This document shows positions 22,780-28,703 of a DNA stretch of 64,000 nt, in pieces; the first letter of the stretch is position 1; every line of letters starts with the position of its first letter. Below the pieces are notes generated by a model. The model worked only from the letters and a program-made list of their open reading frames with translations, ran no database searches and was not told the origin of the DNA. Source of the stretch: Halobacteriovorax sp. (GTDB lineage: Bacteria; Bdellovibrionota; Bacteriovoracia; Bacteriovoracales; Bacteriovoracaceae); the NCBI GenBank assembly GCA_002720865.1, contig PBIO01000030.1, positions 1 to 64,000 of the forward strand. Reading direction: 5' to 3'. Both the position numbers and the translations under genes were made by a program.

Positions 22780-23187
22780 TTACCTTTCAGAATTGATGGC
22801 GTATTTCATCAACCCAAGTTTCTTGTTCAGAAGCTGAACAGACGCATCATAAAGAATTTTGTTTTTCGCCATTTGTGACATTTCATAATCTCTATCTACG
22901 GTGTTCCCATCCTCTGAAGCATTTCCATTCGGGTCTTCGTAAATTTCTGGTTGAAGATTTGCAAATCCTCCAGAACCTACATCGTAATGCCCATCATCTG
23001 ATGTTCCTAAACTTTGCTCTCCATCAACATCAAGAGCTCTTGCTAAGGCCTCTTCAAAACCGAGACGCTTAGACTTGTATCCTGGAGTATCAGCATTTGC
23101 GATATTGGACGTAATAACCTCTTGGCGCATTTCGCGCATTTTAATACTCGCGGCTAGTGCTTTAACGGTTGCGTCGTCAATCTTCAT
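22780..23187 (-). CDS. flgB: flagellar basal-body rod protein FlgB
   Basis: 135 residues. The N-terminal motif MREMRQEVITSNIANADTPG and the C-terminal YEMSQMAKNKILYDASVQLL followed by NKKLGLMKYAI match FlgB. It forms the most proximal rod ring. The gene starts 15 bases after the AAA+ regulator gene, so it is probably transcribed with it, not from a promoter of its own. Confidence 0.96.
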   Translation of the reverse strand: MKIDDATVKALAASIKMREMRQEVITSNIANADTPGYKSKRLGFEEALARALDVDGEQSLGTSDDGHYDVGSGGFANLQPEIYEDPNGNASEDGNTVDRDYEMSQMAKNKILYDASVQLLNKKLGLMKYAINSER

Positions 23188-23202: not shown

Positions 23203-24135
23203 TTATCTCAAGTTTACGAAATAAGCGTTTCCTGCACCTCTATACTCGTTAATCTTATTTCTAAGAGTACGAATAGAAACACCTAGGATCTTTGCCGCTT
23301 GAGTTCTGTTTTCGCTTGTATGAATAAGAGCCTTCTTAATAAGAAGTTTTTCAGCTTCTTTAAGAGACATAAGTCTAATACCTTCATTATCTTCATCAGT
23401 AATAAGACTAACTGCTTTCTTCTCACCAATTTCTAGATCAGCTTCTGAAAGAGTGTTTCCATCACCATTATTCACAGAATTTTCAAGAACCGCTTTTAGC
23501 TCTTGAACATTATGAGTCCAATAGTGACTTAAAATCTTTTGAAGAGCTGAAGGCTCAACTTGAACATTATTTCCACCTGAAAACTCAGTTAGGAAGTAAC
23601 GAGTTAGCATCTCAAGATCACCTTCACGTTCTCTTAGTGGTGGGATTGTAATCGCGTTATTAGAGACTAGTGTGTAAAGCCCTCTATAGAATCTTCCTGA
23701 TCCTACTAGCTTTGATAGATTCTTCGTCGTTGTTGCAACGATACGAACATCAATATCGTAATCACCTAGTTCATTTAAAATTTTGTGTAGTTTCTTTTGG
23801 AATTCATCCTCAAGCCCATCAATATTAGCAAAGATAACAGTTCCACCGTTGGCCGCTTCTAATACGCCTCTAGTAAAACGCCCTGTCTCGTCATCACGAA
23901 ATCCTAAGATTTTGTTTTCGACATCTTTCGCTTCCATTGAACAGTCAACAACTTCAATTGTTTTACCTGCTCTCGTTGAGCTTTCATGAATAAAATTAGC
24001 TAGAGCTTTTTTTCCAACGCCTACTTCACCAATAATAAGCACTGGAGCTTTAGTAACTGATACATTTCTTGCTACTGCTACTGCCTTTTGAACTTTTGGG
24101 TCCATTCCGAACAATTCAACCTTTACTGTACTCAT
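23203..24135 (-). CDS. degenerate sigma-54-type AAA+ regulator (FlbD/FlgR-like)
   Basis: 310 residues from ATG 24135, chosen because AGGAGG lies four bases upstream; an ATG 15 bases earlier is possible. The protein has an AAA+ domain (residues 8-225) and a Fis-type DNA-binding helix (ENRTQAAKILGVSIRTLRNK, about 274-298), but no receiver domain. Motifs are decayed: Walker A GEVGVGKK (36-43) is near normal, GAFTGA reads GRFTRG (85-90) in a shortened loop, and Walker B reads TVIFANID (99-106) where DE is expected. It therefore may not hydrolyse ATP or contact sigma-54 in the usual way. Its place directly before flgB points to flagellar regulation. Confidence 0.8.
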   Translation of the reverse strand: MSTVKVELFGMDPKVQKAVAVARNVSVTKAPVLIIGEVGVGKKALANFIHESSTRAGKTIEVVDCSMEAKDVENKILGFRDDETGRFTRGVLEAANGGTVIFANIDGLEDEFQKKLHKILNELGDYDIDVRIVATTTKNLSKLVGSGRFYRGLYTLVSNNAITIPPLREREGDLEMLTRYFLTEFSGGNNVQVEPSALQKILSHYWTHNVQELKAVLENSVNNGDGNTLSEADLEIGEKKAVSLITDEDNEGIRLMSLKEAEKLLIKKALIHTSENRTQAAKILGVSIRTLRNKINEYRGAGNAYFVNLR

Positions 24136-24177: not shown

Positions 24178-26889
24178 CTAAAGGGTTCTTTCTTTTATTT
24201 TTAAAAGCGATAACTCGCTTCTTGCCATCTCCTTAACGTAATCAGAAATCGACTTGTCATCTACGATCTTAGTCAAGATTTCCTTTCCTTCTTCTACCTT
24301 TTCATTCTTTAAAAGAGACACAGCTAGTAAGTAGCTTAGTCTTCCTTTGTATGTTGATTTATCAAATTCCTTAAAGAATCTCTTAATTCGGCCTTCAAGA
24401 ATGATAAAAGACTCTTTAGACTTTTGACCTGCTAAAAGCTCGATATTTAAATAAGCAATTCTCTCTCTAATTTCGAACATGTAACGGTTCTTTGGATTGT
24501 AATACTCAGTATCATTTAAAACTGCTTCCGATACTTTCTTAAACTTATCAATTGCACCAGTTTGATAAAGAGAGTCCGTATAAGCTCTCATCATCTCTGC
24601 AACTTCATATGGGTCAAAGATTGACTTTCCTTTTTCTCTGGTCAAAAAAGTCTCTATATGGATTGGTGCTGTTTTATAGTCTTTCTGATAAAAAGCGATA
24701 ATCCCTTTGTAGTAATTTGTTTTGTTATAGCCTTTCATTAGCTTAGAGAACTCACCCAGGTTCTTTTTCGCCAGTGACCAGTTCTTCAAATTGATATTTT
24801 TAATAAGCTCCATCTCTTTAAGTAGAGCAAGTCCCCATACTTTTATATCTCTGTCGTACCATACTGGAAAAGTTTTTGCTGGGGTTCTACTTAATTTCTT
24901 ATAGTTAATGTAGTGATTATCGAAAGCTTCATAAAGCCCCATTTTCATATACGACTTAGCGACGATAAAATTAAGGTAAGCATCAGCAGCTACCTTGTTA
25001 ACATATCTGTCTTTGTAAATTTCCCAAATCCTAACAAGGTTTGAGTAATCAGACTTTTTAAAATAGTTATCGATTAGCCCGTATACGATCTCTGCCCCGT
25101 CAGCTTCAAAAACTCTTTTCTCGCTTGGTTTAAGGCTAGTAACAGGTATCGCATTTAAGTAACTTAAGGCTTTTGTATAATTTCTATCAACGATAAAAGT
25201 TCTAAGTCTAACTAACCAAAGAAGTTTCTTTAGATTCTTATCAATTAGTTTCTTTTCCTTATCATCTAGCTCTAGAAAAATCCTCTTTTCCATGTCTAGG
25301 TCTGTAGGCTTTCTTTTTCTAATTGAATTCAGTCCAACATACCTAAGTCTTGCCTCATAACTTGTTTTAAAATCCTGAGATCTATCAATCGCATTTTTAT
25401 AAAGCTGAAGAACTTTTGCTTCACTCTTTCCAAGAAGATCATAAGCTAAGGCGATTCTCATACGAGCTTGAGAGCTTTTTGGGTGATAAGAGTGCTGGGA
25501 GATGAAGTTATCGAATAATCTAACAGCTACCGGATAGTTAGCTTCTCTAAAGTAAGACTCAGCTACATTGAAGAGAAGAACCGGGTTTACTGGTTTTGTT
25601 AGTCCAGATTTAACTTTATTATATTCTTTTAATACTTCTTCTATTTGTCCCAACTTGAAAAGAGCATAAATTTTGTATCCAACCATCGTTTGTGCTGGAA
25701 GCAGTTTCTTTATAGTCTTCTCTTTTAGGATTTCTCTGATTTTTTCGATTTGATTTAGATGAGTTAGATTAAAAAGAATTGCTTCTGCGGCTTTATTACT
25801 TTCTTCATAGTCAAAGTTCTGTTTTGATTCAACATAAAGCTTCTTAGAGAATTCTAAAGAATTAATATTGTCCTTAGCATCCATATAGTATTGAAGAAGG
25901 TATTTATAAATCCCCTTCTTCATATCGTAATTCTTAGTTCTTGCGGCAATATTGGTAAACATTGATACGGCCATCTTTACTGGCTGCATATTATCTTTAC
26001 CAAAGTTTGTTCTTAAAATAGCATTGGCCTTTAAATACTCATTAAAGTTAACAGCAGTATCTTCTCCATATTTCTCGTGAAAGAGCTTAATTGACTTATA
26101 CATTAAGCCCCATTTCTTCTTTCTATAAAGATTAATATTTAGCTGAAGGTGGGCTTCTTGTTCCCCTTTATCAAAAGCTCTATTTTTAATCGGATAAAAA
26201 TACTCTGGCGTCTTTCTATCCAGGTTAAGGTAAGGCTTCATCGTTGGCTTAAGAGCCTCATAATCCCAAACAAAGGCAGCACCGTATCTAAAATCTCTAT
26301 AAGGCTCAAGTTTCTTTACTACTTTTCTAGGCCCCTGCTTTTTAGTGGCTCTTTTCTTTCTTGGTTTTTTTGTAAATGTTATCTTATTAGACTTTTTACC
26401 AACAGGTGCTACTACTCCAACTTCCTGAGAATCTTTTTTAGCTTTCTCAATATCACTAATTTTCTTTTGAACAGCAGCATTGGCAGCATTTACTGAGTCT
26501 GCATCTCTCCAGAAGTCGACGACATATTTCTTTTCTCTATCTCTATAGAAGTTAAAAAGTTCAACATCCGGTGATGAAAGTTTTATCTCAATACTTTCAA
26601 TATTATTATTTTTTGCTGAAGGTTCATTATAAGAAATTGACTTAAAATATTTTGTAACTGGCTTTAATGGAAGTAATTCTTTTTTTAGATTATTAAGAAC
26701 GCCTGTATTAAGAGATTTAATAAAAACAGATGTTCCTCTTTTTTCAATTACGACCATATCTCTTTGAACAAAAAGGTGAAGACGATAATGTGTTTTCGTA
26801 ACATTCTGCTGAACTAGTTCAGCAAAAACTTCCCCAGCGGCAAAGATGGCCACAAGCAAAGTCAAAAATTTGAAAACTCTTTTGATCAT
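24178..26889 (-). CDS. large exported TPR protein at the head of the flagellar operon
   Basis: 903 residues. A signal peptide (VFKFLTLLVAIFAAGEVFA, cleavage about residue 23) is followed by a beta-rich N-terminal domain with RGTSVFIKSLNTGVLNNLKK and KYVVDFWRDAD that resembles an AMIN-type module, a basic linker (about 165-190, KKPRKKRATKKQGPRK), and then about 650 residues of degenerate TPR helices (for instance LFNVAESYFREANYPVAVRL, SYHPKSSQARMRIALAYDL). It is probably periplasmic or outer-membrane associated and binds other proteins or murein. It precedes the AAA+ regulator by 42 bases. Similar long TPR proteins accompany flagellar genes in Bdellovibrio relatives as I recall, but the role is not established. 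Confidence 0.7.
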   Translation of the reverse strand: MIKRVFKFLTLLVAIFAAGEVFAELVQQNVTKTHYRLHLFVQRDMVVIEKRGTSVFIKSLNTGVLNNLKKELLPLKPVTKYFKSISYNEPSAKNNNIESIEIKLSSPDVELFNFYRDREKKYVVDFWRDADSVNAANAAVQKKISDIEKAKKDSQEVGVVAPVGKKSNKITFTKKPRKKRATKKQGPRKVVKKLEPYRDFRYGAAFVWDYEALKPTMKPYLNLDRKTPEYFYPIKNRAFDKGEQEAHLQLNINLYRKKKWGLMYKSIKLFHEKYGEDTAVNFNEYLKANAILRTNFGKDNMQPVKMAVSMFTNIAARTKNYDMKKGIYKYLLQYYMDAKDNINSLEFSKKLYVESKQNFDYEESNKAAEAILFNLTHLNQIEKIREILKEKTIKKLLPAQTMVGYKIYALFKLGQIEEVLKEYNKVKSGLTKPVNPVLLFNVAESYFREANYPVAVRLFDNFISQHSYHPKSSQARMRIALAYDLLGKSEAKVLQLYKNAIDRSQDFKTSYEARLRYVGLNSIRKRKPTDLDMEKRIFLELDDKEKKLIDKNLKKLLWLVRLRTFIVDRNYTKALSYLNAIPVTSLKPSEKRVFEADGAEIVYGLIDNYFKKSDYSNLVRIWEIYKDRYVNKVAADAYLNFIVAKSYMKMGLYEAFDNHYINYKKLSRTPAKTFPVWYDRDIKVWGLALLKEMELIKNINLKNWSLAKKNLGEFSKLMKGYNKTNYYKGIIAFYQKDYKTAPIHIETFLTREKGKSIFDPYEVAEMMRAYTDSLYQTGAIDKFKKVSEAVLNDTEYYNPKNRYMFEIRERIAYLNIELLAGQKSKESFIILEGRIKRFFKEFDKSTYKGRLSYLLAVSLLKNEKVEEGKEILTKIVDDKSISDYVKEMARSELSLLKIKERTL

Positions 26890-27149
26890 AGAACCGAAAC
26901 TTCCTGTTTCATTTTATTGTTACTTTTTCTGCGCAAAGGCTTCAAAGCATCGACAATCCCGTTCTTCCTGAACAGCTCGTCTAGGTAAAGTGTATCAATT
27001 TTTGGGGTAATTTACAGGAAAATTTTTCTCGGCGGACATTTTTTCCTAGTGATTTTTTGACACCACCATAGGACCAACTAATTACGGCTTCTTAGGTTGT
27101 CTAAAAACCTAACACCCTAGTCGGACTCAATAGTATTTAATTGATTAAT
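26890..27149. other. 260-base gap between the response regulator and the flagellar operon
   Basis: No gene. It holds two inverted repeats: AGGAAAA (27016-27022) with TTTTCCT (27041-27047), and TTAGGTT (27092-27098) with AACCTAA (27106-27112). The second could be the 3' hairpin of the response regulator gene, but no T-run follows it on the minus strand. The promoter of the TPR/flagellar operon must lie here; I cannot pick a convincing -35/-10 or -24/-12 pair. Confidence 0.5.
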
Positions 27150-28703
27150 TTAATGGGTGACGTAGAGAAGTCCCTTTTTCTTCATCTTTTCGATGAGAGT
27201 GGTCCTATTCATGGTCAAAAGCTTCGAAGCCTGATTCTTATTCCCACCAGTCATCTCAAGGGCCTGAGAGATTAGGGAGTCTTCAATATCAGATAGTGTC
27301 TTCTTTAGATCTAGGCCTTCGTTCGTAAGCTGAATAATGCTATCGTATTTTTGAACATAGGTTGGGTTATTTTGAAGTATCTTTATAGGTAGATCATTTG
27401 GCTTAATTAATGAACCACCTCTTAAGATAACAAGCCTTTCGATAAGGTTCTCTAGTTCCCTAACGTTTCCTGGCCAGTCATAGCCCATGAGCATCTCAAG
27501 TGCTTCATCATCAAATTCTATTGAATTTCTTCCATCGGCACTTACAAATCTTTGCAGGAAATAGCTTATTAAAAGAGGAATATCTTCTCTTCTTTCACAT
27601 AGGGAAGGTACCTTAATTGGAATTACATTTAGACGGTAAAAAAGATCTTCTCTCATATCCCCGTCTTTTACTGCTTTTTCTAAATCCCTGTGAGTCGCCG
27701 TGATAATACGAACATTCACAGGAAGGGTTTTAGTTCCGCCTACAGGCTCAATCTCTCTATTCTGAAGTACTCTTAAGAGTTTAACCTGAAGAAGAAGAGG
27801 CATATCCCCGATTTCGTCGAGAAATATAGATCCTTTATCTGCTAACTCAAATCGTCCCTTTCTATCACTAATAGCGCCAGTAAAAGCACCCTTAACATGT
27901 CCAAACAGCTCACTTTCAAGTAGCTCTGAAGGGATTGCCCCACAGTTAACTGAAATCATGTCACATGCTTGCCTAGGAGATAAGGTATGGAGAGCTTTAG
28001 AAACAAGTTCCTTACCAGTCCCTGAAGGTCCATTGATAAGAACTGTCGAATCAGAGTTAGCGACTTTTTTAATTCTCTCAAAGACTTGTTTCATTTGAGG
28101 GCTTCTACCAATCATTCCACAAAAGATATCTTCTTCCTTAGGTGGTTCGATCTTAAATTTCTTAAAGATCGGATTGTCTTTTTTAGCAGCATCAGACTTA
28201 ACAATATTTTGTAGATGAATATCTTCATAACCATAACGAGATAGAGCCTTTAGAACTAAGTCTGCAAGAACATCCATTTCAAATGGTTTAGTTAAATAAT
28301 GAAAGACACCTTTTTTAGTGGCATTAATAGCAGTTTCTATTGAGGCAAATCCAGTCATCACAATGGAGACAAAGGAATGTCCTTTTTCTTTTAGAAGATC
28401 TACAAGAAGGAGACCGTCTGCACTTCCTTCATCAAATGAGATATCGCTAACTAAGCAAAAGGGTTTTTGATTTTCAATTCCTTCCGCATCTAGCTTTAAA
28501 TCTAAGGCCTGAATACATTCACTTGGATTCGGGAAGTAATGAACAACTAGACCTAGCTTCTTTTGAAGAAAGGTACGAAGTGCCTTTGCAAAGATCTTAT
28601 CGTCCTCAACCAAATAAATATCTGGCGGAGTACTTACGGCCTGCTTATTAGAGGCAGGCTTATCTTGGTCAAAAGCTGTATGTAGAAAATGAAAATCGTT
28701 CAT
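27150..28703 (-). CDS. NtrC-family sigma-54 response regulator
   Basis: 517 residues in three intact domains. Receiver (27-155): acidic pair E33-D34-D35, phospho-acceptor D87 in LVSDISF, T117 and K139 in YLTKPF. AAA+ (193-430): Walker A GPSGTGKE (225-232), GAFTGA (272-277) and Walker B D296-E297 in FLDEIGDM. Fis-type helix-turn-helix at the end ([20 protein letters not shown]). It should activate sigma-54 promoters when phosphorylated. No histidine kinase gene is adjacent. Standing upstream of the flagellar operon, it may be the active partner of the degenerate regulator, but this is inference. Confidence 0.92.

Follow-up and report, generated by a model that had tools for sequence, protein, structure and literature searches.

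A flagellar NtrC-type regulator without the sigma54-activator motifs, and the promoter of its operon, in Halobacteriovorax and related bacteria

How a transcriptional activator moves between the sigma54 mode, driven by ATP hydrolysis, and the sigma70 mode, based on recruitment, is an open question, and the known regulators without a GAFTGA motif are scattered, single cases. A gene in the flagellar operon of Halobacteriovorax sp. raises this question within one phylum. Its product, which we call Q (23203-24135, minus strand, in the window analysed here, the first 64,000 nucleotides of contig PBIO01000030.1), has the AAA+ domain of a sigma54 activator and has lost the motifs that define one. Here, we ask whether this loss is local or inherited, what happened to the promoter that such a regulator would serve, and what role might be left for the protein.

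Altered motifs and conservation of Q

The reading frame of Q is real, starting at an ATG at position 24135 with AGGAGG six bases 5' of it (the ORF listing places the start at an earlier in-frame ATG, 24150). Pfam matches comprised Sigma54_activat (PF00158, 79.5 bits), AAA_lid_14 and HTH_8; the AAA+ domain, complete with Walker A, begins near residue 9, and the Pfam search found no receiver domain. The features of the protein are as follows.

23203..24135, minus strand: Q, a degenerate NtrC-type AAA+/Fis-HTH regulator, 310 aa (ORF, Pfam, alignment, census)
24010..24030, minus strand: Walker A GEVGVGK, residues 36-42, GK invariant in 81/81 (81-member census)
23944..23946, minus strand: position of the "glutamate switch" Asn, Asp64 in Q, Asp in 80/81 (census)
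23857..23910, minus strand: residues 76-93, L1 (GAFTGA) sigma54-contact loop deleted, short hairpin RDDETGRFTRG instead
23818..23841, minus strand: residues 99-106, Walker B TVIFANID, Asp to Ala103 and Glu to Asn104 (alignment, census)
23674..23697, minus strand: residues 147-154, changed arginine-finger segment GRFYRGLY, R151 in 81/81 (census)
23497..23520, minus strand: residues 206-213, sensor II segment WTHNVQEL, without Arg (alignment, census)
23236..23319, minus strand: residues 273-300, Fis-type HTH, near invariant in the family and alike in all flgB-linked orthologues
23206..23226, minus strand: C-terminal tail AYFVNLR, found in the window's family only, codons varying synonymously

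An earlier note, made from the sequence of this stretch alone, had read GRFTRG and IFANID where the protein encoded at 27150-28703 has GAFTGA and DE, and both halves of that comparison were borne out: the loop and the Walker B acids of Q are gone, and the 27150-28703 protein is an intact NtrC-type regulator with GAFTGA, DE and a receiver. Alignment with this protein and with other activators of the same genome showed that the L1 loop of Q is about 7 residues shorter, with RDxETGRFxKG in its place, a deletion and not a substitution. The earlier note did not mention two further changes, FREDLYYR to FYRGLYT in the arginine-finger segment and GNVREL to HNVQEL in sensor II. The gene for the intact protein lies between metK and the flagellar operon, and in many genomes of the family it stands about 4 kb upstream of Q.

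The AlphaFold model of Q (pLDDT 85.9) has an intact bEBP fold in which strands 78-80 and 87-89 make a short beta hairpin at the expected place of L1. Its closest PDB match is 3m0e, an ATP-bound Walker B mutant of NtrC1 (E 7e-20), and the structures of FlrC and FleQ were matched as well. The NCBIfam model for FlbD was the second best match of Q (E 3e-46), at 158 bits against a curated cut-off of 750. On sequence grounds, Q falls outside the sigma54 activators, whose defining motifs it lacks, and outside FlbD as curated.

Families found in the genome search were coded f1-f28, with f1 the window's own, and the genomes compared are mostly MAGs and assembled fragments. Named members of f1 are Bacteriovoracaceae/Halobacteriovorax MAGs and isolates, the nearest being an uncultured Halobacteriovorax (93% identical). 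Of the first 37 f1 genomes, 34 contained Q (49-93% identity) and the other three are incomplete assemblies; in f1 genomes with flgB it always lies directly 5' of that gene, with a gene for a TPR protein upstream. The GAFTGA loop is absent in 81/81 f1 members, and Walker A GK is retained in all of them. The Walker B Asp is Asp in none of the 81, and the Glu is replaced by Asn in 79; the sensor II Arg is lost, so that Q has neither the Walker B Asp-Glu pair nor this arginine. The glutamate-switch Asn is Asp in 80/81. With the Walker B Glu changed to Asn, the Asn/Glu pair of the switch (named as in PspF) now reads Asp/Asn.

These changes are strictly preserved. Between Q and its nearest relative dN is 0.047 and dS 0.82 (dN/dS 0.06, likewise 0.06 for the AAA part alone), and the most conserved part is the Fis-type HTH, nearly invariant across f1. 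The earlier statement that Walker A and the Fis helix are kept thus holds throughout the family. A tail of the form [YF]F[VIL]NLR ends f1 proteins only, while outgroup proteins stop a few residues past the HTH with unrelated ends; since the tail codons vary synonymously, the constraint acts on the protein, and we would guess that the tail touches RNA polymerase or DNA. The orthologue comparison proposed in the earlier note thus gave a family-wide loss, and a local mutation or a pseudogene is ruled out by the 81 conserved orthologues and the dN/dS of 0.06. Absence of RpoN as the reason for decay is likewise ruled out, with rpoN in this genome and in nearly all relatives. As had been suspected, Q is not plausibly a sigma54 activator, given the missing loop and catalytic residues across the orthologue census.

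Orthologues in other families and history of the losses

We used flgB as an anchor in 290 genomes of the phylum and read the gene upstream of it in some 45 outgroup genomes, where it proved to be the counterpart of Q, receiverless and sharing its recognition helix. The flgB-linked orthologue is intact in nine families (f3, f8, f11, f15, f18, f19, f21, f22 and f27) and degenerate in four (f1, f6, f12 and, partly, f23). The intact orthologues of other families are receiverless too, at about 310-330 aa, so the missing receiver is ancestral and not derived: it is indeed absent from Q, but it does not belong to the loss with which it had been listed. In f6 the flgB-linked regulator is more decayed than Q, being about 240-286 aa long with the loop region gone, or missing altogether (L231-L237, L259-L262, L265).

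In a tree computed without the trait columns, the flgB-linked regulators form one clade (100/97), apart from paralogues and including one orthologue from a genome without flgB. Q belongs to this flgB-linked clade of the Bdellovibrionota by its position directly 5' of flgB, its TLRNK-type HTH and the clade support. The fewest changes that explain the motif losses on the tree are four. Because a single clade of f1 and f6 was not rejected (p-AU 0.36), a single origin of the two is neither shown nor rejected, and three losses are the safe minimum. The stem of f1 is long (1.67 changes per column) and is followed by strong conservation. Read from these sequences, the motif loss is derived and repeated and not a local mutation, and the history of the f1 regulator is one of rapid change followed by new constraint.

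The operon promoter and its candidate operators

The regulator lies second in an operon whose gene order and upstream region in the window are given below.

24178..26889, minus strand: 903-aa TPR protein, encoded first in the operon, 5' of the regulator in nearly all lineages
22780..23187, minus strand: flgB, directly downstream of Q, followed by flgC, fliE, fliF, fliG, fliH and fliI
27034..27046, minus strand: distal candidate operator GGAAAAAATGTCC, some 17 bp 5' of its proximal counterpart
27017..27030, minus strand: proximal candidate operator GAGAAAAATTTTCC, a dyad centred 28 nt 5' of the -10 box
26989..26994, minus strand: -10-like box TACACT (family consensus TANAAT)
26961..26973, minus strand: leader hairpin 1, GTTC-AGGAA-GAAC (GGA-loop type)
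26896..26910, minus strand: leader hairpin 2, GAAAC-AGGAA-GTTTC, covering the TPR gene's Shine-Dalgarno

A sigma54 box (TGGCA[CT]-N5-NTGC[AT], sought near the start of the TPR gene) precedes the operon in 28 of the 31 outgroup genomes with a recognisable TPR gene, and the three without it belong to f12, where the regulator is degenerate. Near the operon start of the 70 f1 genomes there was none, with scores at background except for one 0.83 match 366 nt upstream, and no sigma54 promoter above chance was found at the flagellar genes of the window. The window's genome contains 11 perfect sigma54 boxes, all before genes other than the flagellar operon. The f6 genomes keep the box before the operon despite their degenerate regulator; since that regulator is the more decayed, motif loss and promoter loss are not strictly coupled.

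The genes behind perfect boxes in the window's genome (L219-L228) are mainly of the secreted or lipoprotein-like sort, besides one bEBP gene (C17), and none is recognisably flagellar.

The box distribution bears on two of the three roles offered in the earlier note, in which Q would join an intact sigma54 activator, such as the 27150-28703 protein, in mixed hexamers or act against it in another way. Such a partnership would be compatible with the retained AAA+ fold and Walker A, with the conserved placing of the intact protein some 4 kb upstream in many relatives, with the f6 genomes, where a sigma54 box stands alongside a degenerate regulator, and with work on Caulobacter NtrC, which lacks GAFTGA and whose DNA-binding mutants are able to activate sigma54 flagellar genes (PMC12421884). 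However, Q and the 27150-28703 protein lie on separate branches and have different HTHs, the arginine finger and sensor II of Q are altered, and the f1 flagellar operon has no sigma54 promoter left while the 11 perfect boxes precede other genes. Mixed hexamers thus found no support, and jointly with antagonism we consider them very unlikely. The third role, a DNA-bound regulator, agrees best with the HTH, with the disappearance of the sigma54 promoter and with the dyad described next.

Operons of f1 share a dyad, GNAAAATTTTCC, 28 nt before a TANAAT box. A perfect TANAAT occurs exactly 28 nt from the dyad centre in 41/67, while each of the other distances between 10 and 45 nt accounts for 3 at most. 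Upstream of this proximal dyad, at about 17 bp, there is a second one. No -35 box above shuffled background was found in the f1 operon promoter, and the patterns used gave no FliA promoter at the operon in the window. If TANAAT is the -10 box, the centre of the proximal dyad would lie near -40, the position of a class II activator; an architecture with only a -10 box and one or two dyads fits an activator-dependent promoter of the sigma70 type.

The operon leader (26896-26973, minus strand) also carries AGGA-loop hairpins, at least one of which occurs in 62/67 f1 leaders and two or more in 42, compared to 14/335 shuffled leaders. Their arms are varied but complementary. The hairpins resemble CsrA/RsmA targets, and csrA was present in 9/9 genomes searched.

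We scored dyads with our own weights, taking as the control for flagellin genes the upstream regions of other, non-flagellar loci of the family. Scores of at least 0.88 were reached in 9/28 f1 flagellin upstream regions versus 4/221 other upstream regions (p 4e-7), and several flagellin dyads lie within FliA-like spacers, between TTAAG-like and CCGA boxes. Other flagellar genes have weak dyads or none, and no consistent dyad was found upstream of fliA. A strict genome-wide regulon search for the dyad with TANAAT gave no match (the window's own -10 box is TACACT), and the strict dyad alone gave three matches, of which just one has a promoter context. Outgroups that share the HTH of Q carry dyad-like sites no more than 80 bp from the sigma54 box, just upstream of it, at a higher frequency than dinucleotide shuffles do (Fisher 5.6e-5), with 12/26 at p<=0.1. 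In one genus, 4/4 relatives without flgB and, where searched, without flhA keep the dyad and a TAAAAT promoter together with Q.

It is from the joint retention in flgB-less relatives, the flagellin dyads and the outgroup dyads accompanying the same HTH that we infer binding of the dyad by Q. Alternatively, the dyad may be bound by an unrelated factor, with Q acting elsewhere or only with the TPR protein; the weak or missing dyads at other flagellar genes would agree with this. Yet the dyad promoter stays with Q even after loss of the flagellum, and related dyads stand near the sigma54 box in lineages that share just the HTH, so that a different binder seems distinctly unlikely to us.

If Q is the binder, it could also be a pure repressor or a DNA-architecture protein that limits flagellar expression, acting on the -35 region of its own promoter and on the FliA promoter spacers of flagellin genes, much like FlbD at early Caulobacter promoters. 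The dyad does abut the -35 region, several flagellin dyads sit between the TTAAG-like and CCGA boxes, and for FlbD, repression of the early gene fliF goes together with activation of later ones (PMC3930126). Against this, the operon promoter has no -35 box above shuffles, its fixed 28 nt spacing is typical of activator-dependent promoters, and a pure repressor would have no need of the conserved P-loop. We regard pure repression as unlikely, and activation by Q rather than repression as the reading suggested by the promoter.

Five relatives without flgB and flhA still keep Q (L049, L317-L321; G033, G113, G157, G217 and G029). In G033 and G029 a diverged FliF-like protein is encoded directly after Q, without flgB, flgC or fliE, and FliF-like genes follow Q in L317 and L320 too. 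We read this as a remnant MS-ring gene that has stayed with the regulator.

A probable mode of action and its parallels

Together, motifs that were lost and then strictly preserved and an operon promoter that switched type suggest that Q has probably been re-purposed for the ordinary transcription machinery, as an ATP-binding, non-hydrolysing, DNA-bound regulator that would activate its own operon at sigma70-type promoters. The ancestor would have been a receiverless, flgB-linked sigma54 activator of the Bdellovibrionota. As the f1 sequences show, this lineage has lost the GAFTGA loop for sigma54 contact and the residues for ATP hydrolysis, namely both Walker B acids and the sensor II arginine, while the P-loop for ATP binding, the Fis-type helix for DNA binding and the AAA+ fold were kept. 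Meanwhile, the sigma54 promoter of the TPR-Q-flgBC-fliEFGHI operon gave way to a -10-only promoter with one or two dyads. An oligomer of Q, its shape set by a nucleotide that is bound and not hydrolysed, may sit on the dyad and contact sigma70-type (or FliA) RNA polymerase from the class II position, perhaps via the f1-specific tail. Q would thereby exert autoregulation on the flagellar operon; some flagellin promoters would be targets too, and at the FliA-like ones it could also repress.

We hold this account as a whole, a former sigma54 activator re-purposed along with its own promoter, to be moderately probable. Several observations count against it: the box kept in f6, the single strict dyad in a promoter context, and the flagellin dyads in FliA-like spacers, where binding would rather repress. 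The more detailed version, in which a sigma54 flagellar activator and its promoter became a class II activator of the sigma70 type with ATP as a fixed conformational ligand, an Asp/Asn switch in place of Asn/Glu and a new C-terminal contact peptide, is offered only tentatively.

Regulators of this kind have precedents. TyrR, DhaR and HupR lack GAFTGA and are sigma70-dependent (PMC3162934), and the GAFTGA-less Rhodobacter capsulatus NtrC, VpsR and Caulobacter NtrC act at sigma70 promoters, with R. capsulatus NtrC requiring ATP binding and not hydrolysis (PMC10274813). Like Q, TyrR, HupR, VpsR and the two NtrC proteins combine an NtrC-type AAA+ domain with a Fis HTH and have L1 deleted or altered; they serve sigma70-type promoters, a type that the architecture of the Q operon promoter would fit. 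Unlike them, Q has no N-terminal sensory, ligand or receiver domain, has also lost the Walker B acids and sensor II, lies in a flagellar operon, carries the f1-specific tail and has a promoter replacement that can be traced against intact orthologues. FlbD, an activator and repressor with sigma54 in Caulobacter, resembles Q in being flagellar and in its AAA+ domain and Fis HTH, and the positional orthologues in other Bdellovibrionota are intact; Q differs from it in having no N-terminal domain, GAFTGA or Walker B acids. FlbD binds ftr-type elements of flagellar promoters, and the counterpart for Q is a candidate dyad. FlrC, FleQ and FlgR are flagellar regulators with the same AAA+ fold, but L1 and hydrolysis are retained in the ones cited as sigma54 activators, and their operon context and HTH differ. 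By analogy, and with the same moderate confidence as the account of which it is part, Q would work like TyrR, HupR, VpsR and R. capsulatus NtrC and not like FlrC or FlbD. Attack-phase promoters of Bdellovibrio are dominated by FliA (PMC3627812), which fits flagellar control moving off sigma54, though f6 keeps its sigma54 box.

In the literature searched, we found no paper on the Q gene or its promoter switch, and neither Bdellovibrio nor Bacteriovorax is named in a recent survey of sigma54 regulons, which filtered EBPs by GAFTGA. Within a single phylum, a syntenic regulator occurs in intact and degenerate forms with matching sigma54 boxes or dyad promoters, and since similar motif losses recurred, the regulator of this operon lends itself to direct comparison in its intact and its presumably converted forms. 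The order of events becomes testable, including the gain of new contacts and whether motif loss came before promoter loss, as f6 suggests. These data caution against using "sigma-54-dependent regulator" as the annotation of this widespread gene, and they bear on flagellar control in predatory bacteria.

The same genome encodes a second degenerate NtrC-type protein (L008, G000:C11:402130-402627), on a branch separate from Q. It reads GDFTSP, has INNID at Walker B and the same Asn-to-Asp change at the switch, and possesses an extra N-terminal region that looks GAF-like by eye.
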